Shown piece after piece: positions 14,840 through 24,590 of a stretch of DNA of 64,000 bases (positions are counted from its first letter, which is position 1; the number at the start of each line of letters is the position of its first letter). Location of the stretch: contig NZ_BMMP01000003.1 in NCBI RefSeq assembly GCF_014645895.1, forward strand, positions 103,949 through 167,948, read 5' to 3'. The notes under the pieces are model-generated. The model saw only the letters and a program-made list of their open reading frames with translations. It had not been told where the DNA came from and ran no database searches. Source of the stretch: Streptomyces daqingensis. GTDB taxonomy: Bacteria; Actinomycetota; Actinomycetes; Streptomycetales; Streptomycetaceae. Both the position numbers and the translations under genes were made by a program.

Positions 14840-14961
14840 GGTGCACATTCCATCACCGGCGGTGGGGTGCCGCCCGCTTCCGCAGGGGGTTACTCTCCGG
14901 TCACGAGATCTTCCGGGTGAACGTCCGCGCGCACAGCCGGGTGTGGAACAGGTGGGACACA

Positions 14962-16617
14962 ATGGCGTACGACGCCGATGTCATCGTGATCGGGGCAGGC
15001 CTCGCCGGGCTCGCGGCGACGGCCGAACTGGCCGACGCCGGCCGCAAGGTGATCCTCCTCGACCAGGAACCCGAGCAGTCGCTGGGAGGCCAGGCCCACT
15101 GGTCCTTCGGAGGGCTCTTCCTCGTCGACTCGCCGGAGCAGCGCCGCCTGCGCATCCGCGACAGCCGCGAACTCGCCTGGCAGGACTGGCAGGGCACCGC
15201 GGGCTTCGACCGCGAGGAGGACCACTGGCCGCGCCGCTGGGCGGAGGCGTACGTCGACTTCGCGGCGGGGGAGAAGAGGGCGTGGCTGCGGCAGCAGGGC
15301 CTGAAGATCTTCCCCGTCGTCGGGTGGGCGGAGCGCGGCGGCTATGGCGCGAGCGGCCACGGCAACTCGGTGCCGCGCTTCCACATCACGTGGGGCACCG
15401 GACCCGGCATCGTCGAGCCCTTCGAGCGGCGCGTGCGCGCGGGTGCCGAGCGCGGGAACGTCGAACTGCGCTTCCGGCACCGCGTCACCGGGCTGGGGCG
15501 CAACGCCGGGACCGTCGACACGGTCAGCGGCGAGATTCTCGAACCCAGCGGAGTGGAGCGGGGAGAGGCGAGCAGCCGCGACGTCGCCGGCCACTTCGAG
15601 CTGCGGGCCCAGGCCGTCGTCGTCACCTCCGGGGGCATCGGCGGCAACCACGACCTCGTACGCGCCAACTGGCCGCAGCGGCTGGGCACTCCGCCCGCGC
15701 GCATGCTCTCCGGGGTGCCCGCCCACGTCGACGGGCTGATGCTCGGCGTCACGGAGAAGGCCGGCGGGCGCATCGTCAACCGCGACCGGATGTGGCACTA
15801 CACGGAGGGCATCGAGAACTGGGACCCGATCTGGAACCTGCACGGCATCCGCATCCTGCCCGGCCCGTCCTCGCTCTGGATCGACGCGACGGGCAAGCGG
15901 CTGCCCGTGCCGCTCTACCCGGGGTTCGACACCCTCGGCACCCTCGACCACATCATGCACACCGGGCACGACTACACCTGGTTCGTCCTCAGCCAGAAGA
16001 TCATCGAGAAGGAGTTCACACTCTCCGGCTCCGAACAGAACCCCGACCTGACGGGCAAGGACGTGCGGGGCGTGCTGAACCGGGCCGGCGGTGGCGCGCC
16101 GGGGCCGGTGCAGGCGTTCATGGACAAGGGTGCGGACTTCGTCATCGAGCGTGAACTGGGCCCGCTCGTACGGCGGATGAACGAGCTGACCGGCGAAGGC
16201 CTCATCGACGAGACCGCCCTGCGCCGCGAGATCGAGGCCCGGGACCGGGAGATCCTCAACCCGTTCACGAAGGACCTTCAGGTGACCGCCCTCCGCGGCG
16301 CGCGGAAGTACATCGGCGACAAGCTGATCCGGGTCGCCTCGCCCCATCGTCTCCTCGACCCGAAGGCGGGGCCCCTCATCGCCGTTCGGCTCAACATCCT
16401 CACCCGCAAGTCGCTCGGCGGACTCGAGACCGACCTCGACGCGCGGGTCCTCGCCGAGGGCGGCGAGCCGCTGCCGGGCGTGTACGCGGCAGGGGAGGCC
16501 GCGGGCTTCGGAGGAGGCGGCGTACACGGATACCGGTCCCTGGAGGGGACCTTCCTCGGCGGGTGCCTCTTCTCGGGACGTACGGCAGGGCGGGCCGCGG
16601 CGAAGGCGGTCGGCTGA
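14962..16617 (+). CDS. FAD-binding dehydrogenase (KstD/fumarate-reductase-like)
   Basis: A 551-aa flavoprotein of the FAD_binding_2 family. The N-terminus has the Rossmann motif VIGAGLAGLAATAELADAG, and the C-terminus has GVYAAGEAAGFGGGGVHG and LEGTFLGGCLFSGR, the second FAD-binding strand. The central capping domain resembles ketosteroid dehydrogenase/fumarate reductase relatives but the substrate is not evident. The ATG at 14962 places the Rossmann strand 7 residues in; a longer in-frame start lacks a ribosome site. Confidence 0.88.
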   Translation: MAYDADVIVIGAGLAGLAATAELADAGRKVILLDQEPEQSLGGQAHWSFGGLFLVDSPEQRRLRIRDSRELAWQDWQGTAGFDREEDHWPRRWAEAYVDFAAGEKRAWLRQQGLKIFPVVGWAERGGYGASGHGNSVPRFHITWGTGPGIVEPFERRVRAGAERGNVELRFRHRVTGLGRNAGTVDTVSGEILEPSGVERGEASSRDVAGHFELRAQAVVVTSGGIGGNHDLVRANWPQRLGTPPARMLSGVPAHVDGLMLGVTEKAGGRIVNRDRMWHYTEGIENWDPIWNLHGIRILPGPSSLWIDATGKRLPVPLYPGFDTLGTLDHIMHTGHDYTWFVLSQKIIEKEFTLSGSEQNPDLTGKDVRGVLNRAGGGAPGPVQAFMDKGADFVIERELGPLVRRMNELTGEGLIDETALRREIEARDREILNPFTKDLQVTALRGARKYIGDKLIRVASPHRLLDPKAGPLIAVRLNILTRKSLGGLETDLDARVLAEGGEPLPGVYAAGEAAGFGGGGVHGYRSLEGTFLGGCLFSGRTAGRAAAKAVG

Positions 16618-16797
16618 CCCCTGGGCGGCGGTCTCTGCCGGGGCCGGTGCGGTGCGTGCCTGCACTGCGCGTAGTCCGCTGCGGGGCTCGGCCGTGTGCC
16701 GGAGCGCGTCTCCGTCCGCCGGTGCGCCGCCGTCCTCCGGCGAACTCGGGCTGCTCGCGGAGGCGGTCCGCCCGCTGGCCGCCCGCCGTCCGTCCGG

Positions 16798-17619
16798 CTA
16801 GGCGTCCCGCTGCGCGGACTTACCGGCGGCCAATTCGGCGAGCAGATCGCGGCTCGCCGCCGCCACGCGCGGCTGGACGCCCAGCTCGCCGAGCATGTCC
16901 GCGGCCGCCGACATCTCGGCTGTGCGGCGCACGGCGTGGCGGTGCGTGCCCTGCACGAGCCGGTCGACTGTGCCGGCGTCCGCCTGGCTCAACTCGCTGA
17001 CGATGTTCTCCCTGACCCACTCCTCGCAGCCCGCCGCGCGCCCCGCTTCGAGGGCCTCCACCACGGCGGCCGCCAGACCCTTGAAGAAGACGCTGCGCAG
17101 CAGCTTCCGTTCGGCTGCGCGGCCGGGCGGCCCCTCGATCAGTGCGACGTACGCGCCCAGATCCGACAGCAGCCGCGCGGCCGCGGCGGCACCGGGCCCG
17201 CTGGCGAGCATGGGCACGCGCAGGCCGCGCCGGGGGACCGGGGCCATGATGGCGAAGTCGGCGAAGTCCACTCCGTGTTCGGCGGCAGTATGGGCCAACT
17301 CGCGTTTCGCGCCCGGTGACGCGGTGTTGAGGTCCGCCCACACCGCGCCGGGGCCCACCGAGCCGACGCCCGCGAGAAGCACCCCCTGGGCTGCCGAGGC
17401 GCTGTTGACGCTGAGCACGACGTGCGCGCCCGCCGCCGCCTCGGCCTCGCTGCCCGTGCGGGTGACGCCTTCCGGCACCGGTACGGCGGCCGGGTCGTAA
17501 CCGCGTACCGCGGCGCCGGCGCTCGCCAGGTCCCCGGCGAGGGAACCGCCTGCTTCGCCGAGACCGAGGACTGCCACCACGGTCCGGGCGTCTTCTTCCG
17601 ATGAGGTGTCCGAGGGCAT
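16798..17619 (-). CDS. NAD(P)-dependent dehydrogenase with DUF1932 C-terminus (HIBADH-like)
   Basis: A 273-aa beta-hydroxyacid-dehydrogenase-type protein. Residues 14-45 are a Rossmann fold with GLGEAGGSLAGDLASAG, the middle has VWADLNTASPGAK in place of the usual substrate loop, and the C-terminal half is the helical DUF1932 domain with the catalytic-Lys region ERKLLRSVFFKGLAAA. It is divergent from the GntR gene and shares its 78-bp promoter region, which contains the GntR-type box, so it probably belongs to the same regulon and oxidises or reduces an intermediate of that pathway. Confidence 0.85.
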   Translation of the reverse strand: MPSDTSSEEDARTVVAVLGLGEAGGSLAGDLASAGAAVRGYDPAAVPVPEGVTRTGSEAEAAAGAHVVLSVNSASAAQGVLLAGVGSVGPGAVWADLNTASPGAKRELAHTAAEHGVDFADFAIMAPVPRRGLRVPMLASGPGAAAAARLLSDLGAYVALIEGPPGRAAERKLLRSVFFKGLAAAVVEALEAGRAAGCEEWVRENIVSELSQADAGTVDRLVQGTHRHAVRRTAEMSAAADMLGELGVQPRVAAASRDLLAELAAGKSAQRDA

Positions 17620-17643
17620 GCCGCTACACTAAGCTCGGACAAA

Positions 17644-17655
17644 ATTGTTGACAAT
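17644..17655. promoter_or_regulatory. GntR-type operator ATTGT-TG-ACAAT (gntR promoter)
   Basis: Arms of 5 bp with a 2-bp spacer lie in the AT-rich gap between the divergent dehydrogenase and GntR genes. The same 12-bp core occurs again at 18655-18666 before the catabolic operon and I saw it nowhere else by eye, so it is the likely binding site of the GntR protein. The form TTGTnnACAA is typical of FadR-type GntR regulators. Confidence 0.72.
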
Positions 17656-17696
17656 ATCGGTGCGTATTTGTGCGGCGGAGAGGAACCGGGGAGATC

Positions 17697-18365
17697 GTGG
17701 CTGAGGACGGGGCACGCAACGGGGCCGGGGCGCCACTGGTGGAGGCCATCCGCGAGGCGATCATCAGAGGCGAGTTCGTGCCCAACCAGCGGCTCGTGGA
17801 AGCCGATCTCTCCTCGCAGTTCGGCGCCAGCCGCGCCAGCGTCCGCTCCGCGCTGCTGGAGCTGACGAACGAGGGGCTGGTCGAGCGCATACAGAACCGC
17901 GGTGCCCGGGTGCGCGCGGTCCCGCTCGACGAGGCCATCGAGATCTCCGAGGTCCGGATGGTGCTCGAAGGGCTCTGCGCCGCCAAGGCCGCCGAGGCGG
18001 TCACGGGCGAAGAGGTCCGCGAACTCCAGGGCATCGGCAAGTCCATGCGCGAAGCCGTGGCCGGCGGGGACCTGCTCGGATATTCCGCCCTGAACCAGGA
18101 ACTGCACCGCCGCGTGCGCGAGATCGGCGGTCAGCGGACCGCCTCGCGGGTGCTGGAGCGGCTGCGCGGCCAGAACGTCCGGCACCAGTTCCGGCTCGCG
18201 ATGCACCCCGGGCGGCCCTCGGTCTCGCTGCCCGAGCATCTGGCGATCATCGACGGCATCTGCACGCACGACCCGGAGGCCGCCGAGCGTGCGGCCCGTG
18301 CCCATCTGCGCAGCGTCATCGAGGCACTTCGCGAGGTCGACGCCCAGCCCGGGCACAGACCCTGA
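17697..18365 (+). CDS. GntR-family regulator, FadR/FCD type
   Basis: A 222-aa regulator. The N-terminal winged helix covers residues about 10-75, with LVEAIREAIIRGEFVPNQRL and ASRASVRSALLELTNEGLVE; the C-terminal FCD ligand domain contains ISEVRMVLEGLCAAKAAEAV and the metal-site histidines in NQELHRRVREIGG and AEHL-type positions (SLPEHLAIIDGI, ARAHLRSVIEAL). The GTG at 17697 follows GGGGAG. It probably represses itself, the divergent dehydrogenase and the operon starting at 18709 through the matching ATTGTTGACAAT sites. Confidence 0.92.
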   Translation: MAEDGARNGAGAPLVEAIREAIIRGEFVPNQRLVEADLSSQFGASRASVRSALLELTNEGLVERIQNRGARVRAVPLDEAIEISEVRMVLEGLCAAKAAEAVTGEEVRELQGIGKSMREAVAGGDLLGYSALNQELHRRVREIGGQRTASRVLERLRGQNVRHQFRLAMHPGRPSVSLPEHLAIIDGICTHDPEAAERAARAHLRSVIEALREVDAQPGHRP

Positions 18366-18636
18366 CGCGAACTCGCACCGCCGGCCCCCCGCCCGGGTGC
18401 CGGACTTCCGCCCGTCCCGTACGGACCGCGCCGGGCCCTGGTTTATCCGCTCCCAGTGATCGGATGCGCCGGGGTCCGGCGCTTCCGTCTGCGGGCCGGG
18501 AGGTGCGTGCCCGGAGGCCCGGCGCACCGGCGGCCCCTCGGCTCCGAGGCCCTTCACCCTTCGCCGGTCCCGGTGACTCCGGCGGGCGCGGCAGCTCCAC
18601 GCCCCTGCTCCCTTCCGTCCGGTTTCGACCGACCCC

Positions 18637-18668
18637 TTGACTGCTGTAGCCAAGATTGTTGACAATCT
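18637..18668 (+). promoter_or_regulatory. Promoter with GntR operator for the catabolic operon
   Basis: A -35-like TTGACT (18637-18642) and -10-like GACAAT (18661-18666) are 18 bp apart. The perfect inverted repeat AGATTGT-TG-ACAATCT (18653-18668, 7-bp arms) overlaps the -10 box, an arrangement expected for repression. The operator core matches the one at 17644-17655. The rest of the 343-bp gap from 18366 holds nothing I recognise. Confidence 0.65.
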
Positions 18669-18708
18669 GCACGGAGATTATGGCTGCAAAGGATCGCTAA
18701 GGAGAGAC

Positions 18709-19674
18709 ATGGCCGATCACCCCCAGCCGTCGAACCACGCGAGGGAGCTCGTCAAAGGCGCGTACGACGTGCACATCCACGTGGCACCGGACGTGATGCG
18801 CCGTCGCATCGACGACGTCACGCTCGCCGAGCGGTTCGCGGCAGTCGGTCTGGCCGGCTTCGTCCTCAAGTCGCACTACGCCCCGACCGCGGAGCGCGCG
18901 GAAGTCGTGCGCAGAGCCGCGCCGGGCGCCTCCGCGCTGGGAGCCATCACGCTCAACGCCTCGGTCGGAGGGCTCAACCCCGTCGCCGTCGAGATCGCCG
19001 GGCGCGGCGGAGCGAAGTTCGTCTGGCTCCCCACGGTCGACAGCGCCAACCAGCGCCAGTGCCGGGCCTCCGAGCCCGAGGGGGCGACGCCTCCCATGTG
19101 GGCGAAGCTCCAGGACGATCTGCGCGCGGACGGCATGGCCGCCGAGCCCGTGGAGGTCGTGGCGCCGGACGGCACTGTCGTAGACGCCGCCCGGCAGGTC
19201 TTCCGTCTGATCGCCCGGCACGACATGGTCCTGGCCACAGGCCATCTGCACGCGGACGAGATCGCCGCGGTCGTCGACGCCGCCGCGGACGAAGGCGTCG
19301 AGCGGATCGTCGTCACACATCCGGAGTTCACCTCGCAGCGCGTCGCCGTCGAGCGCCAGCAGCAGCTCGCCGCGCGCGGCGCACTGCTGGAGCGGTGCTT
19401 CACCACGCCCTACACCGGCAAGGTCGAGTGGGACGTGTGGTTCCGGGCCGTCCGGGAGGCCGGCCCCGAGAACTCCGTGATCTCCAGCGACCTCGGTCAG
19501 CCCTTCAATCCGCCGGTCGAGGACGGTCTCGCCCTGTGCGCGGACCGCCTGCTCGCCGAAGGCTTCGACGACGGCGAAGTGCGCATTATGACCGTGCACA
19601 ACAGCCGCTGGCTCGTCGGCGCCGAGGCGCTGCCCGACGCTCCCGCCGCACACCGGAAGGCCGACACCGAATGA
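18709..19674 (+). CDS. DUF6282 amidohydrolase-like protein
   Basis: A 321-aa TIM-barrel hydrolase-like protein. It starts with the metal-binding DVHIHVAPDV (HxH near residue 22), has SHYAP (Lys-His strand), VLATGHLHADEI and IVVTHPEFTSQ in the middle and ISSDLGQPFNPPVEDG near the end, giving a full set of candidate metal ligands. The family has no assigned reaction that I know of. It is the first gene of an operon with GalB-like hydratase, GalC-like aldolase and an importer, so a lactonase or hydrolase step feeding that pathway (comparable to LigI) is plausible but unproven. AAGGAG precedes the ATG. Confidence 0.8.
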   Translation: MADHPQPSNHARELVKGAYDVHIHVAPDVMRRRIDDVTLAERFAAVGLAGFVLKSHYAPTAERAEVVRRAAPGASALGAITLNASVGGLNPVAVEIAGRGGAKFVWLPTVDSANQRQCRASEPEGATPPMWAKLQDDLRADGMAAEPVEVVAPDGTVVDAARQVFRLIARHDMVLATGHLHADEIAAVVDAAADEGVERIVVTHPEFTSQRVAVERQQQLAARGALLERCFTTPYTGKVEWDVWFRAVREAGPENSVISSDLGQPFNPPVEDGLALCADRLLAEGFDDGEVRIMTVHNSRWLVGAEALPDAPAAHRKADTE

Positions 19675-20387
19675 CTGAGCGACGCATGCTTGTCGTCGGC
19701 GCGCACAGCGCCGACTTCGTCTGGCGGGCCGCGGGTGCCGTCGCCGCCCACACTGCGGCGGGCGGCGAGGCCCTGGTCGTCGCCCTGTCCTACGGGGAGC
19801 GCGGCGAGTCCGGGGTGCTCTGGAAGCAGGAGGGCCAGACCGAGGAGAACGTCAAGCGCATCCGGCACGAGGAGGCGTCCAAGGCCGCCGCCGCCGTCGG
19901 GGCCGGTTTCCGGGCGTTCGATCTCGGCGACTACCCGCTGAACGTGACCCCGCAGGACGTCGAGCGGCTGGCGGAGCTCATGCGCGACTTCGCCCCGCAC
20001 GTCGTGCTCACCCACCCGGAGAAGGACCCCTTCAACCCCGACCACCCGGTGGCGCACCAGGCCGTCGCCCGGGCCCGGCTGCTGACCTCGGGGGCGGGGG
20101 TCGCCAGCGGCTTCCGTACGGCGCCGCCCTCGGAGTTCCTGGTCTTCGAGCCGCACCAGCCCGAGCTGTGCGGTTTCACACCCACCGTCTACGTGGATAT
20201 AACGCCCGTATTCAAACGTAAGGTCGACGCCATGAGCTGCATGGCTGCTCAGCAGTACCTCCAGGAGTACTACGCGCAACGGGCCGACCAGCGCGGCAAT
20301 CACGCGCGCAAGGTCACCGGCAATCAGGAGATCCGCCAGGCGGAAGCCTTCCAGCGGCTGCTGCCCCACGTGGTCGGTGGGCTGTGA
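19671..20387 (+). CDS. PIG-L/LmbE family protein, 4-oxalomesaconate hydratase (GalB)-like
   Basis: A 238-aa PIG-L fold protein. The N-terminus MLVVGAHSADFVWRAAGAVA, then LSYGERGES and FDLGDYPLNV, is like GalB of gallate catabolism (AHxADFVWR and FGERGES) rather than like sugar deacetylases, which carry a PHPDDE motif. HPEKDPFNPDHPVAHQ provides the second metal/substrate segment. GalB hydrates 4-oxalomesaconate to 4-carboxy-4-hydroxy-2-oxoadipate. The gene overlaps its neighbours by 4 bp on both sides, and the next gene encodes an aldolase of exactly the following step, which supports the call. Confidence 0.8.
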   Translation: MTERRMLVVGAHSADFVWRAAGAVAAHTAAGGEALVVALSYGERGESGVLWKQEGQTEENVKRIRHEEASKAAAAVGAGFRAFDLGDYPLNVTPQDVERLAELMRDFAPHVVLTHPEKDPFNPDHPVAHQAVARARLLTSGAGVASGFRTAPPSEFLVFEPHQPELCGFTPTVYVDITPVFKRKVDAMSCMAAQQYLQEYYAQRADQRGNHARKVTGNQEIRQAEAFQRLLPHVVGGL

Positions 20388-21043
20388 GCGCCCCGGGCAC
20401 GGGGACGCCGTGCTCCGAGGCCGCGCTCGCCGAACTCGCCGACGCCGGAGTGGCGACGGTCTACGAGGCGTACGGGCGCCGCGGCCTGCTCGACGCCGAC
20501 TGGACGCCTCTCACCCCGGGATGGCGCACGGCCGGACCCGCCCGCATCGCCTACTGCGGGCAGGGCGACAACCGCGCGGTCCACGAGCTGATGCCGCACG
20601 TACGGCCCGGCGAGGTGCTGGTGCTGACGATGCCCGAGCCGGAACCGGTGGCCCTCTTCGGCGACCTTCTCGCCACCCAGGCCGCCGCCTGTGGAGCCGC
20701 TGCCGTGCTGGTGAACGCGGCGGTCCGGGACAGCGCCGACCTGGCGCGGCTCGGCTACGGGACGTGGACGCGCTGGCGCCGGGCCCGTGGCGCCACGAAG
20801 AGCGAGCGGGGCAGCGTGAACGTGCCGGTGGAGATAGGCGGCACGACCGTCGCGCCGGGGGACGTCGTGGTGCTCGACGACGACGGCGTCACCGCGGTGG
20901 CGTCCTCCGACGTGGAGGAGACCGTGCTGGCAGTGCGGCAGCGCATCGCCAAGGAGGACGGTCTGCGCGAGCGCTGGGCGGCCGGCGAGTTCAGCTACGA
21001 CGCCTACGGGCTGCGGGCGGCCGACGAGGGAGGGCCCTCATGA
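20384..21043 (+). CDS. RraA-like 4-carboxy-4-hydroxy-2-oxoadipate/HMG aldolase (LigK/GalC-like)
   Basis: A 219-aa member of the RraA-like class II pyruvate aldolases. It has GDLLATQAAACGAAAVLVN, the catalytic AAVRDSADLARLGY (Arg and Asp of the RxxD motif) and a PGDVVVLDDDGVTAV beta-turn. Family members with this motif cleave HMG or 4-carboxy-4-hydroxy-2-oxoadipate to pyruvate and pyruvate or oxaloacetate using a divalent metal. Its position directly after the GalB-like gene (GTGA overlap) favours the aromatic lower-pathway aldolase over an RNase E inhibitor. Confidence 0.85.
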   Translation: MSAPGTGTPCSEAALAELADAGVATVYEAYGRRGLLDADWTPLTPGWRTAGPARIAYCGQGDNRAVHELMPHVRPGEVLVLTMPEPEPVALFGDLLATQAAACGAAAVLVNAAVRDSADLARLGYGTWTRWRRARGATKSERGSVNVPVEIGGTTVAPGDVVVLDDDGVTAVASSDVEETVLAVRQRIAKEDGLRERWAAGEFSYDAYGLRAADEGGPS

Positions 21044-21804
21044 CAGGTGTGCTCGCGGCGGAGCGGCTCACGAAGCAGTTCGCCAAGGACGACCAGGCGA
21101 TCGTCGCCCTGCGGGAGTTCTCCCTGACCGTCGAGGAGGGCAGCTTCGTCACCGTCCTCGGACGCAGCGGCTGCGGCAAGTCGACGATGCTCAACCTTCT
21201 CGCCGGGCTCACCGAGCCGTCCGACGGCGCGGTGACGTACCGCGGCAGGAAGCTCAGCGGCCCGGACATCGACATCGGCTACCTCACGCAGTCCGACACG
21301 CTCATGCCGTGGCGGGACGTGCAGCGCAACGTCGAGATGCCGCTGGAGATCCGCGGCGTGCGCGCGGAGGAGCGCCGCGGCACGGCCGCCGAACTGCTGG
21401 AACGCGTCGGCCTCAAGGGATTCGAGAAGCACTATCCGCGTGAACTCTCCGGCGGTATGCGGCGCCGCGCCAGCCTGGCCCGCATGCTCGCCGGCACGCC
21501 GCGGACGCTGCTGATGGACGAACCGTTCGGCGCGCTCGACGCGCAGCTGCGCACCGAACTGCAGGAGGAACTGCTGCGGCTGTGGCAGGGCAGCGGCCAG
21601 ACGGTGGTGTTCGTGACGCACGACATCGAGGAAGCCCTGCTGCTGGGCGACCGCATCGTGGTGCTCGGGCAGCTCGGCCGCGTCGTCGCCGACCGCGAGG
21701 TCGGCCTGGAGCGGCCCCGCACCCTGGACACCCTGCGCGTCGACCCCGCCTTCGTCGAACTGCACACGGCGATGGCCGCCGCGCTCAAGGAGGGCTCGTC
21801 ATGA
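21040..21804 (+). CDS. ABC transporter ATPase (nitrate/sulfonate/taurine type)
   Basis: A 254-aa ATPase with Walker A GRSGCGKST, the Q-loop YLTQSDTLMPWRDVQRNVEM, signature LSGGMRRRASLARML and Walker B LLMDEPFGALDAQLR. The LMPWR and EPFGALD sequences mark the SsuB/TauB/NrtD family. The ATG overlaps the aldolase stop (ATGA), so the importer is part of the catabolic operon. It powers uptake through the next two proteins. Confidence 0.93.
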   Translation: MTGVLAAERLTKQFAKDDQAIVALREFSLTVEEGSFVTVLGRSGCGKSTMLNLLAGLTEPSDGAVTYRGRKLSGPDIDIGYLTQSDTLMPWRDVQRNVEMPLEIRGVRAEERRGTAAELLERVGLKGFEKHYPRELSGGMRRRASLARMLAGTPRTLLMDEPFGALDAQLRTELQEELLRLWQGSGQTVVFVTHDIEEALLLGDRIVVLGQLGRVVADREVGLERPRTLDTLRVDPAFVELHTAMAAALKEGSS

Positions 21805-22655
21805 CGGAACAGCTCGTGAGCCCGGGGCGGCAGACCTCCGCGGGCGGCCCCGTCCGCATCCCCGTCGAGCGGACCTGGTGGCAGCGGCACGGACGCACGA
21901 CGACCGTGTGGGCGCTGCGTCTGCTGCTCGTCACGGTGCTGCTGGCCGGCTGGCAGATGACGGCGGGCAGCCTCTTCGACATCACCTTCACCAGCAAACC
22001 CAGCGCCATCGCCGGACGTCTCGGGGAGTGGTCCGCGGACGGCACTCTGTGGACGCACAGCCTGGTGACCATCCAGGAGATCGTCTACGGCTTCCTGCTG
22101 GGAGCGGTGGCGGGCGCCGTCGTGGGCTTCGTCCTGGCGTCCCTGCAACTGGCGTACCGGGTCATCGACCCGTTCATGATGGCGCTGTACTCGATTCCGA
22201 AGGTGGCTCTGGCCCCGCTGTTCATCGTGTGGTTCGGAATCGGCATGCACATGAAGGTGCTGCTCGCCGCCGCGACCGTCTTCTTCCTCGTCTTCCTCAA
22301 CACCGCCGCCGGGGTGCGGGAGGTGGACCGGGGGCTCGTCGACGCGGTGCGGCTGATGGGCGGGAGCCGCAAGGACATCGCGCTCAAGGTCGTGCTCCCC
22401 TCCTCGATGACGGGAGTCCTCACGGGCCTGAAGGTGGCGATCCCCTACGCGCTGATCGGTGCGGTGATCGGGGAACTGGTCGCCTCCAACCAGGGCCTGG
22501 GCTACCTCATCAACGACGCCGCCGCGCAGTTCGACACCGCCGGGGTCTTCGCGACGCTGGTCGTGCTGAGCGTCATCGCCGCCGTCCTGAACGTCCTCGT
22601 CGGCCTCATCGGCCGCCGGGTCAACCGGTGGAAGCCGGTCGAAGCACGAGGCTGA
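21801..22655 (+). CDS. ABC transporter permease (nitrate/sulfonate/taurine type)
   Basis: A 284-aa permease with a 35-residue cytoplasmic N-terminus, one helix, and the BPD_transp_1 core. The family pattern IDPFMMALYSIPKVALAPLF and WFGIGMHMKVLLA is clear, as is the coupling loop (DAVRLMGGSRKDIALKVVLP). It overlaps the ATPase gene by 4 bp. Transporters of this family import sulfonates, nitrate, thiamine precursors or aromatic acids such as phthalate; the enzymes upstream favour an aromatic-derived acid. Confidence 0.92.
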   Translation: MTEQLVSPGRQTSAGGPVRIPVERTWWQRHGRTTTVWALRLLLVTVLLAGWQMTAGSLFDITFTSKPSAIAGRLGEWSADGTLWTHSLVTIQEIVYGFLLGAVAGAVVGFVLASLQLAYRVIDPFMMALYSIPKVALAPLFIVWFGIGMHMKVLLAAATVFFLVFLNTAAGVREVDRGLVDAVRLMGGSRKDIALKVVLPSSMTGVLTGLKVAIPYALIGAVIGELVASNQGLGYLINDAAAQFDTAGVFATLVVLSVIAAVLNVLVGLIGRRVNRWKPVEARG

Positions 22656-22721
22656 CCGCCGCCCCGGCTGTCGGCCCCCGATCCTTGATCCGCTGCGAAC
22701 CCAGCGACTGGAGCTGCAGAC

Positions 22722-23747
22722 ATGAACTCTCACATCGAGCGCAGGGCGCTGCTGAAGTCGTTCGCGGCGGCCCCCCTCCTCCTCTCGCCACTGGCCGCCG
22801 GCTGTGCCGAGCACGGCTCCACCACGAAGGCCGGCACGCTCAACATCGGCCAGATCAGCAACTCCGTGGCGTTCTTCCCGCTGTTCATCGCGGAGGAGAA
22901 GGGCTACTTCAAGGACGAGGGCATCAAGCTCGGCGACAGGCCGCGGCTGGGCACCGGGGCGAAGGTGGCCGCCGCCCTCAAGTCCGGCTCCATCGACCTG
23001 GGGGCGGGGGTGCTCACCGACGCGTTCAACCTCGCCCAGAACGATCCGAGCGCCCGGGTGCTCTCCAGCCTCGTCACCGAGTACTACGTGGACATCGTCG
23101 TGGGGAAGTCGTTCGACGGGCCGGACGCCGGCGCCCCGCTGGAGGAGCGCACCAAGGCGCTCGTCGGCAAGAAGATCGGCATCACGGGTCCGGGCAGCGG
23201 CACGGAGGCCCTGATCGGGCATCTCTTCGACGGCATAGGCAAGAAGGCGAAGACCGACGCCACGCTCGTCAACCTCGGCAGCGCTGCGACTTCGGCTCTC
23301 GGAGCGCTCAAGTCGGGCCGCGTGGACGCGCTTTCGTTCTTCCAGCCGATCGGGCAGCAGGCCGAGGCCGACGGTGCCGGCCGCATCCTGATATCCCCGG
23401 CCGCGGGCCATGTGCCGGACATGAAGGGCGCGTTGCACGGCGTCGTCTTCTCCACGCAGAAGCTGCTGAAGAAGAAGGCCAAGGAGGCCGAGGGCTTCCA
23501 GAGCGCGATGAAGCGCGCCCAGGCCGACGTGCAGGGCGACCCGGACAAGGTGCGGGAGCTGCTGGAGAAGTACCTCAAGGACACCGACGCGAAGGCGCTG
23601 GACGCGCTGGTGCCGATCCTCCGGAAGGAGATGCCGGAGTCGCCGTCGGTCGAGCGCGGACCGTACGAGACGGCGCGGCGCTTCCATCAGGCAAGCGGAC
23701 TCGTTGAGGACGCCCCGGAATTCGCGAAGATCAAGGCGGACGGCTGA
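22722..23747 (+). CDS. ABC transporter substrate-binding lipoprotein (NMT1/SsuA-like)
   Basis: A 341-aa binding protein. The N-terminus ERRALLKSF is Tat-like and is followed by the lipobox LAAGC (Cys 28), so it is an exported lipoprotein. The mature part has the NMT1/THI5-like fold: NIGQISNSVAFFPLFIAEEK, then GDRPRLGTGAKVAAAL, GSIDLGAGVLTDAF and KKIGITGPGSGTEAL. The ligand pocket is unassigned; context suggests a carboxylated aromatic or ring-cleavage product. It closes the operon and is followed directly by a strong terminator. Confidence 0.9.
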   Translation: MNSHIERRALLKSFAAAPLLLSPLAAGCAEHGSTTKAGTLNIGQISNSVAFFPLFIAEEKGYFKDEGIKLGDRPRLGTGAKVAAALKSGSIDLGAGVLTDAFNLAQNDPSARVLSSLVTEYYVDIVVGKSFDGPDAGAPLEERTKALVGKKIGITGPGSGTEALIGHLFDGIGKKAKTDATLVNLGSAATSALGALKSGRVDALSFFQPIGQQAEADGAGRILISPAAGHVPDMKGALHGVVFSTQKLLKKKAKEAEGFQSAMKRAQADVQGDPDKVRELLEKYLKDTDAKALDALVPILRKEMPESPSVERGPYETARRFHQASGLVEDAPEFAKIKADG

Positions 23748-23758
23748 GCCGATCCCCG

Positions 23759-23794
23759 GCGGGGGCGGTACGGGGCGACCCGTACCGCCCCCGC
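23759..23794. terminator. Terminator hairpin after the importer operon
   Basis: A perfect 16-bp stem (23759-23774 with 23779-23794) and a GCGA tetraloop lie 12 bp after the binding-protein stop and just before the stop of the convergent GNAT gene. It can work in both directions. Confidence 0.9.
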
Positions 23795-23802
23795 ACGGGT
23801 GC

Positions 23803-24366
23803 CTACCGGCGTTCGCGCCGGGCCGCCCGCCACTCGGGGGCGAGCACCGACCAGACCTCGATGTCGTGCCGCTCACCCCGGCGCAGGTAACTCTCCCGCA
23901 GCACGCCCTCCTTCGTCATTCCGAGCCGGCGCGCCACCGCGATGCTGGCCTCGTTCCCGGCGGACACCACCCACTCCACGCGGTGGATGCCCCGCTCCTC
24001 GACGGCCCAGTCGACGATGACGCCGACCGCCTCGGTCACCAGGCCCCGCCCCACCGCCGCGGGCTCCAGCCAGCAGCCCGCCTCGGCTGTGCCCTGCCCG
24101 ACGTCCATCGTCCGGAAGAGGACGCCGCCGACGAGCCCTTCGTCCGTCCAGATGCCGTAGATCCGGCCGGTGTCGGCCGCCGCCTTCTCGGCATACGACT
24201 TCAGGAAGACACGGGCGGACTCCAAGTCCTCGACGACGTCGGGGAGTCCGACGTACCGCCCGATGAACTCGCGCCCACGGTCGATGTGCGCCAGGAACTC
24301 GGCGGCGTGACGGGGCTCCAGCGGCCTCAGCCGCGCGCCGCCGTCACGCAGGGGTACTGAGAACAA
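23803..24366 (-). CDS. GNAT-family N-acetyltransferase (RimJ/RimL-like)
   Basis: A 187-aa acetyltransferase: LRPLEPRHAAEFLAHIDRGR at the N-terminus, GRIYGIWTDEGLVGGVLFR, then the acetyl-CoA-binding AGCWLEPAAVGRGLVTEAV and the C-terminal NEASIAVARRLGMTKEG. This resembles RimJ/RimL-type enzymes that acetylate protein N-termini or small amines. No ATG or GTG fits; a TTG at 24366 has GGAGG 5 bp upstream and gives the expected N-terminus, so it is the proposed start. Confidence 0.88.
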   Translation of the reverse strand: MFSVPLRDGGARLRPLEPRHAAEFLAHIDRGREFIGRYVGLPDVVEDLESARVFLKSYAEKAAADTGRIYGIWTDEGLVGGVLFRTMDVGQGTAEAGCWLEPAAVGRGLVTEAVGVIVDWAVEERGIHRVEWVVSAGNEASIAVARRLGMTKEGVLRESYLRRGERHDIEVWSVLAPEWRAARRERR

Positions 24367-24590
24367 CGTGACCTCCGAGGTCGGGCCGGTACGCGGGCCG
24401 GTACGCGTCAACTGGCGGCGGTGTGCGCGGAGAAGGCGGGCGGCCGGCCGAAGCGTCCTGAGATGTCGGGCCCCGCGCGGATGATCCCATACCGCCCGTC
24501 CGCAGCGTGCACCAGTCCCGCTCGGGGGACGCGGGAGGCCCCTCGCCCCTGCCGGCGGCCGGGCACCGGACCGGCGCGACGGAGGGGCAG

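Follow-up and report, generated by a model that had tools for sequence, protein, structure and literature searches.

A candidate import-fed lower pathway for 2-pyrone-4,6-dicarboxylate in Streptomyces daqingensis

Results

Gene content of the operon

We analysed a 64,000-nucleotide stretch (the window) of contig C3 of the Streptomyces daqingensis genome (G000; 6.5 Mb, 50 contigs, 99.98% complete), in which positions 16798-23747 carry an operon combining putative catabolic enzymes with an ATP-binding cassette (ABC) importer. The plus strand holds, in order, gntR, the gene for a DUF6282 protein, galB-like and galC-like genes, and genes for the importer ATPase, its permease and an NMT1-type binding protein; the gene for a DUF1932 dehydrogenase lies divergent from the operon on the minus strand. 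An initial annotation, made from the letters alone, had named the hydratase-like, aldolase-like, DUF6282, importer and divergent DUF1932 genes, and Pfam and Protein Data Bank (PDB) matches confirmed their presence and families. It had not listed the GntR regulator at 17670-18365, which has a candidate operator in common with the operon. Its statement that the operon lacks a ring-cleavage dioxygenase also held, since a Pfam scan of ten proteins in or beside the operon returned no ring-cleaving dioxygenase family. The features are as follows.

16798..17619, minus strand: DUF1932 / 6-phosphogluconate-dehydrogenase-like NAD(P) oxidoreductase (Pfam DUF1932 46.7 bits, cut-off 25; NAD_binding_2 39.5)
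17644..17655: candidate operator 1, ATTGTTGACAAT, between DUF1932 and gntR (motif search of window and genome)
17670..18365, plus strand: GntR-family (FCD) regulator (Pfam FCD 84.7 bits, GntR 59 bits)
18655..18666: candidate operator 2, ATTGTTGACAAT, upstream of DUF6282, overlapping a promoter-like site
18709..19674, plus strand: DUF6282 amidohydrolase-fold protein (Pfam PF19799 221 bits, cut-off 26.8)
19671..20387, plus strand: GalB-like 4-oxalomesaconate (OMA) hydratase (Pfam PIG-L 71.8 bits, cut-off 28.2; PDB 5cgz, E 3e-58)
20384..21043, plus strand: GalC-like 4-carboxy-4-hydroxy-2-oxoadipate (CHA) aldolase (Pfam RraA-like 114.2 bits, cut-off 24.5; PDB 3noj, E 3.6e-42)
21040..21804, plus strand: ABC importer ATPase (Pfam ABC_tran 105.8 bits)
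21801..22655, plus strand: ABC importer permease (Pfam BPD_transp_1 103.4 bits)
22722..23747, plus strand: NMT1/THI5-type substrate-binding lipoprotein (Pfam NMT1 56.1 bits, cut-off 20.5)

Successive genes from DUF6282 through the permease overlap by 4 bases, and AAGGAG precedes the ATG of DUF6282. The start codon of gntR is uncertain, with an alternative in-frame GTG at 17697.

The hydratase and aldolase resemble GalB and GalC

The initial annotation had read a GalB/GalC-like lower pathway from these genes, a view supported by the structural matches of both enzymes, the residues of the aldolase and the motif of the hydratase. The only close solved relative of the GalB-like protein was the OMA hydratase 5cgz, the next chains being MshB-type deacetylases at E ~6e-5. 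Both the window protein and 5cgz contain an AHSADF motif, which we take to stand in for the AHPDDE of the deacetylases; in an 82-row GalB tree this position read AHSADF in 69 rows, AHSGDF in 9, AHAADF in 3 and AHSADY in 1, with GERGE present in 82/82. A deacetylase role for this PIG-L protein was rejected in view of that single close solved relative and a BshB1 score of 61.3 bits, compared to a cut-off of 182.5. We propose from these matches that its substrate is OMA.

The best solved relative of the GalC-like protein was the CHA aldolase 3noj. All seven residues compared were kept: R115, D116, E191, H67, K139, R187 and R32 of the window protein correspond to R123, D124, E199, H75, K147, R195 and R40 of 3noj. 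Passages of PMC5065237 name these residues, among them the catalytic Arg, metal-binding Asp/Glu and active-site His/Lys of the 4-hydroxy-4-methyl-2-oxoglutarate (HMG)/CHA aldolase.

DUF6282 is a candidate lactonase and DUF1932 a candidate dehydrogenase

The AlphaFold2 model of the DUF6282 protein (mean predicted local distance difference test score, pLDDT, 93) was an amidohydrolase-type barrel. Its best fold match was a phosphotriesterase-homology protein (Z 20.5, root mean square deviation 3.3, 244 aligned), nearly tied by a dihydroorotase (Z 20.0) and the lactonase Lmo2620 (Z 19.3), and the best Foldseek match was an amidohydrolase (E 4.2e-7). The Pfam scan assigned the window hydrolase to DUF6282 only, with no match to Amidohydro_2, the family (COG3618) of LigI-type hydrolases of 2-pyrone-4,6-dicarboxylate (PDC). 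Residues H22, H24, K54, H56, H179, H204 and D261, which include an HxH, H, H, D pattern, were conserved in 49 or more of the 50 GalB-linked DUF6282 members. The same was true of R99, R229, K238 and W241, which are altered in L002 and L003, two DUF6282 relatives with no GalB within the 3.8 kb fetched, and are therefore candidates for substrate binding. DUF6282 proteins that lie away from GalB (L002, L003 and weak matches in the phylum) probably act on other substrates. With respect to the earlier suggestion that DUF6282 is a ring-opening hydrolase, the amidohydrolase fold fits, as do neighbours elsewhere that include an extradiol dioxygenase and GalB, a setting in which a lactonase would be needed; the activity itself is a prediction from the model. 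We infer that DUF6282 is a PDC lactonase acting in place of LigI. A full-text literature search, which was not exhaustive, found no paper naming DUF6282.

Pfam matched the window dehydrogenase to NAD_binding_2 and DUF1932 only, with no match to Gfo/Idh/MocA, the type of domain found in LigC-type dehydrogenases of 4-carboxy-2-hydroxymuconate-6-semialdehyde (CHMS). DUF1932 perhaps replaces LigC. The papers returned by a non-exhaustive literature search on DUF1932 were unrelated by title.

The binding protein scores outside the SsuA family

The closest folds to the AlphaFold2 model of the binding protein (pLDDT 89) were 3qsl (Z 28.2), PqqT (27.6) and SsuA (26.5). PqqT binds pyrroloquinoline quinone, and the fold match does not identify the ligand of the window protein. 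The initial annotation had called the importer nitrate/sulfonate-type; this is correct for the transporter superfamily and incorrect for the SsuA family, as the binding protein reached 54.2 bits against SsuA_fam (cut-off 163.5). No taurine- or nitrate-binding-protein model was among the 3 NCBIfam families listed for it. Use of a sulfonate or nitrate is thought unlikely on the basis of this score and the gene context. The direction of transport is most likely import.

Related loci carry either the importer or a dioxygenase

A GalB scan returned at least 579 relatives, and the best 80 loci (L008-L087) were compared using a simple open reading frame (ORF) caller and BLAST; several of them stop at contig ends, where absences are weak evidence. 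The same cluster occurs in other genomes: the window-type binding protein was present in 22 of these best 80 loci, alongside DUF6282 in 49, DUF1932 in 49, GalC in 78, a two-domain vicinal-oxygen-chelate protein in 40, LigU/PrpF in 23, LigB in 3 and a LigM-like protein in 5 (that of L022 just 31% identical). The two-domain protein fits a type I extradiol dioxygenase. A Thermus example reached 333.6 bits against the catechol 2,3-dioxygenase model (cut-off 320.2), and H161, H224 and E275, presumably the iron ligands of the type I triad, were invariant in 12/12 aligned sequences.

The importer (22 loci) and the type I dioxygenase (40 loci) never occurred together in the 80. Fisher p values were 8.4e-9 for importer versus dioxygenase and 2.4e-8 for DUF6282 versus LigU, figures that come from related loci and are not probabilities of function. 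All 22 importer loci contained DUF6282, the permease and the ATPase, and all except L013 contained DUF1932. DUF6282 was present in 16 of the 40 dioxygenase loci, 5 of them also with DUF1932, and either DUF6282 or LigU was present in 33/40. DUF6282 and LigU overlapped in 3 of the 80 loci (L019, L025 and L029).

In L031 (Micrococcus), a LigM vanillate/3-O-methylgallate O-demethylase (797.7 bits, cut-off 580) lies beside a DUF6282-GalB-GalC-dioxygenase set. L081 (Rubrobacteraceae) combines a LigM-like protein 48% identical to that of L031 with dioxygenase, DUF1932, DUF6282, GalB and GalC. Provided that PDC is formed by DUF1932 and opened by DUF6282, every step between vanillate and the end products pyruvate and oxaloacetate would have a candidate enzyme at this locus. 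The GalB of L022 (Pseudarthrobacter) is 79% identical to that of the window, and the locus also encodes LigA, LigB and an alpha/beta hydrolase. Passages in PMC8431788 deal with a cluster for protocatechuate 4,5-cleavage from this genus.

In the GalB tree, the window and every one of the 22 importer loci fell in a single actinobacterial clade of 40 rows (support 100/98). Within it, the LigB pair L022/L028 branched inside the importer rows, a placement of moderate support (84/81), and the importer label changed 7 times (2 of these forced by well-supported branches) compared to a shuffled mean of 20.3. The nearest relatives of the operon were mostly from Streptomyces.

Five Micromonosporaceae loci (L026, L027, L032, L039 and L042) carry DUF6282 and GalB beside a different binding protein and permease, with GalC in all except L027 and an ATPase in L027, L032 and L042 only. 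Their binding protein is NMT1-like, as checked by Pfam in L027, and neither a dioxygenase nor DUF1932 was found at these loci. They fit direct import of the DUF6282 substrate best.

DUF6282-type matches occurred in 7 of 61 genomes, a set made up of G000 and 60 relatives, 36 of them congeneric; the six matches outside G000 were at most 37% identical. The operon is therefore rare in the genus. A plasmid search with the operon returned 12 records with matches covering 1-2% of the query, and the matches of the 10 listed records all fell inside the ATPase gene. Among 296 genomes of the phylum, GalB was matched at E 1e-40 or better in 13. DUF6282 exceeded 400 bits in 8, and in 8/8 a GalB match lay within ~50 bases; six of the eight belong to one family. 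Ten more had weaker DUF6282 matches only (at most 230 bits), with no GalB at E 1e-40.

Several related loci merit separate mention. Thirteen Bacteroidota loci (L063, L065, L068, L072, L073, L075, L076, L078, L079, L080, L083, L086 and L087) contain a type I dioxygenase with GalB, GalC, DUF1932 and LigU, apparently an unusual gallate/protocatechuate pathway. Most have a divergent AraC regulator, and L063, the locus checked by Pfam, also has a major facilitator superfamily (MFS) carrier and a BD-FAE-type esterase. The actinobacterial loci L025, L029 and L034 (L036 and L045 in part) carry the window-type operon with DUF6282 alongside a second, unlike ABC system, followed in L025 and L029 by a LigU-like isomerase, with DUF1932 and GalB nearby and common to both importers. 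The paired importers of these loci may supply a single lower pathway with two different compounds. L052 and L053 (Thermus/Meiothermus) hold a compact operon of type I dioxygenase, GntR, DUF6282, GalB, GalC and DUF1932, which would be a source of thermostable enzymes.

A candidate operator links DUF1932 to the operon

The sequence ATTGTTGACAAT is found both in the spacer that separates DUF1932 from gntR and in the one preceding DUF6282, its 2 occurrences in the window comparing with 0.00 expected. The wider pattern WTTGTNNACAAW was found in 2 places in the 6.5-Mb genome, both at the operon, with 0 for the reversed control; this search accepted exact matches only and would overlook degenerate sites. 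Operator 2 overlaps a promoter-like match at 18637-18666, the sole one in 16600-24400 (1 found versus 0.1 expected). Because the candidate operator is common to both, DUF1932 is tied to the operon and belongs to the unit. The GntR protein probably acts as repressor of the unit. Nothing in the exact search points to an additional regulon gene in the rest of G000, for instance one for a dioxygenase.

In 20 of 49 regions compared, the core TTGTNNACAA occurred in the 350 bases preceding DUF6282, against 0.065 expected from dinucleotide shuffles, a count that omits L070 (where the start motif is absent) and includes near relatives that are not independent. By type, it was present in 16/23 importer regions (window included), 2/15 dioxygenase regions and 2/11 others. 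The operator pattern also occurred somewhere in 22 of the 40 dioxygenase-type loci, a figure we did not use, as many of these are from Bacteroidota, where chance matches are likely.

The FAD-binding dehydrogenase at 14917-16617, beside DUF1932, matched NF009472 with 985.7 bits. Of the 80 loci, only four, each from Streptomyces (L008, L009, L010 and L012), have such a gene close to the operon. Neither operator is upstream of the window gene, which was left out of the unit.

Ring cleavage is no constant companion of the importer operon

A profile search for type I extradiol dioxygenases in G000 found none, down to E 0.001; cupin types were not searched. G000 contained no PrpF/LigU protein (the GalD/LigU family) and no LigM over the cut-off (best 61.6 bits). 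It contained two adjacent intradiol dioxygenase genes resembling pcaHG, and one LigB-family protein, G000:C3:69982, ~50 kb from the operon, whose only NCBIfam match was the 4,5-dihydroxyphenylalanine (DOPA) dioxygenase model (175.7 bits, cut-off 233). The earlier claim that no ring-cleaving enzyme is present holds for the locus; for the genome, in which two kinds of meta-cleavage enzyme were tested, it is qualified by this one DOPA-dioxygenase-like protein.

Genomes were searched for 20 of the 22 importer loci (L020 and L030 left out). The type I model scored >500 bits in four control genomes holding its source proteins and ~500 bits in two holding none. Two of the 20 genomes had a strong type I dioxygenase elsewhere (>490 bits), 7 had weaker matches only (124-162 bits) and 11 had none at E 1e-20. 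No LigB-family match was found in 8/20, and in 3/20 a strong LigB and a LigM over the cut-off lay on the same contig. At the thresholds used, neither LigB nor a type I dioxygenase was found in G061, G072 and G080, the first being the genome of the close relative S. abyssalis (L008). Ring cleavage is thus no constant companion of the importer operon. The DOPA-dioxygenase-like LigB protein is thought unlikely to be the ring-cleaver, since S. abyssalis carries the same operon with neither a LigB-family nor a type I match at these thresholds.

Discussion

We suggest, with about an even chance of being right, that the operon is a self-contained, GntR-controlled catabolic unit encoding an import-fed lower protocatechuate-4,5/gallate pathway that is entered at PDC. 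According to this model, the ABC importer would take up an acid of lignin or plant type that is already pseudo-aromatic or ring-opened, PDC being the most likely; DUF6282 would open the PDC lactone to OMA, GalB would hydrate OMA to CHA, and GalC would split CHA to pyruvate and oxaloacetate. Where the hemiacetal precursor CHMS is available, DUF1932 would oxidise it to the lactone. The importer would occupy the place of the type I extradiol dioxygenase found with the same enzymes in many relatives. PDC is the best-fitting and most likely substrate, albeit not a proven one. It suits this role because it is stable, is the intermediate expected for a lactonase upstream of GalB, and has been reported in Rosoideae, at 0.1-2% in genera of this group according to passages of PMC9415522.

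A wider reading, to which we give somewhat less than an even chance, is that the operon is a dedicated PDC scavenger, that PDC lactonases and CHMS dehydrogenases each have a second family, represented by DUF6282 (unrelated to the first) and DUF1932, respectively, and that relatives built meta-cleavage from this second set of parts, from which the importer form dropped the aromatic step. As part of this reading, a type I extradiol dioxygenase would feed the same GalB/GalC lower pathway in relatives from Actinomycetota, Deinococcota, Chloroflexota and Bacteroidota.

Several observations weigh against entry at PDC by import. DUF1932 would be superfluous if PDC itself were imported, yet it is kept in 21/22 importer loci, and its proposed conversion of CHMS to PDC does not explain 15 loci, 13 of them Bacteroidota, with DUF1932, LigU and a dioxygenase and without DUF6282. 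Some importer carriers may open the ring inside the cell, since a strong LigB with LigM (3/20) or a type I dioxygenase (2/20) lies elsewhere in their genomes. LigI was not among the fold matches listed for DUF6282, which excludes nothing. The aldolase reached 173.2 bits against NF006731, just below the cut-off of 179, and 153.8 bits against TIGR02798 (cut-off 304.5); we name it GalC-like because the NCBIfam equivalog cut-off was narrowly missed. In the phylum, 5 of the 13 GalB-matching genomes (45-48% identity) had no DUF6282 at E 1e-20. L018 and L027, which have DUF6282 and GalB, show no GalC in the DNA read (L018 by ORF search only); their aldolase may be encoded at a separate site in the genome. 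Finally, the 80 loci are a best-match subset and are related to each other.

The importer may instead take up an intact aromatic acid such as gallate or protocatechuate, whose ring is opened by an unlinked, unrecognised dioxygenase, for example G000:C3:69982. This would give DUF1932 a task after ring cleavage, and is consistent with the LigB-family protein ~50 kb away and with the LigM and LigB, or type I dioxygenase, found elsewhere in some importer genomes. We nevertheless consider it unlikely, in that the only NCBIfam match of the G000 protein is to a 4,5-DOPA dioxygenase model and falls below the cut-off, the exact operator pattern occurs nowhere else in G000, and 8/20 importer genomes lack a LigB match, with G061, G072 and G080 lacking a type I dioxygenase as well. 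The retention of DUF1932 under a common operator could instead mean that the imported compound, for example a hemiacetal or hydroxy-acid relative, needs a single oxidation to become the lactone or open acid, and is processed by DUF1932, DUF6282, GalB and GalC in turn. This explanation strikes us as distinctly improbable: no DUF1932 was found at the five Micromonosporaceae loci, whose importer is of another kind, it is absent within the stretch read in 11 of the 16 loci with dioxygenase and DUF6282, and we know of no stable environmental compound of this kind. Since CHA aldolase also cleaves HMG, as passages of PMC5065237 report, the unit might even be non-aromatic, importing a plant acid of the HMG or methylene-glutarate kind from which GalC would free two pyruvates. 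The occurrence of the same genes beside extradiol dioxygenases, and in a few loci beside LigM-like demethylases, makes this very unlikely.

If import of PDC is correct, DUF6282 and DUF1932 acquire testable functions and PDC gains a predicted importer. The compound is a building block for bioplastics and, according to passages of PMC9415522, occurs in the leaves of strawberry and other Rosoideae. These bacteria would feed on the ring-cleavage products of others instead of on the aromatic itself, and type I extradiol dioxygenases would head an OMA-type lower pathway in several phyla. A non-exhaustive literature search found no such operon in titles and abstract openings, the passages of PMC10510227 on uptake and transporters describe no PDC importer, and none of five terms sought in PMC12481942 occurred there.

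Compared to protocatechuate 4,5-cleavage (LigAB, LigC, LigI, LigU, LigJ and LigK; PmdABCDEF; pcaABCDE of Pseudarthrobacter Sphe3), the last two reactions of the window unit are alike and use related enzymes, and the intermediates PDC and OMA are probably the same. In contrast, no ring-cleaving dioxygenase was found in the window unit, its hydrolase and dehydrogenase have no Amidohydro_2 and Gfo/Idh match, respectively, and it includes an ABC importer and a GntR regulator. The gallate pathway of Pseudomonas putida comprises GalA, GalD, GalB, GalC and GalT. Relatives of GalB and GalC are common to both systems, whereas the window genome has no GalD/LigU-family protein, and its single LigB-family protein is the one resembling DOPA dioxygenase. 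The window unit has DUF6282 and DUF1932 instead, and an ABC importer where P. putida has an MFS carrier.

In riboflavin/lumichrome degradation (LumE, LumW, LumY and LumX), as described in passages of PMC12746152, a metal-dependent hydrolase opens a pyrone, which is followed by hydration and aldolase cleavage. This pyrone-hydrolase/hydratase/aldolase logic is like that proposed here, while the substrate differs, the products are acetoacetate and pyruvate, and the hydratase is annotated as a cupin. SsuABC, TauABC and NrtABC have the superfamily and NMT1-type binding-protein fold in common with the window importer, whose binding protein scores far under the SsuA cut-off and whose neighbouring genes are carbon-catabolic. 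Taken together, these comparisons suggest that the unit works like the lower part of protocatechuate-4,5 and gallate catabolism, although it is not a complete member of either pathway.

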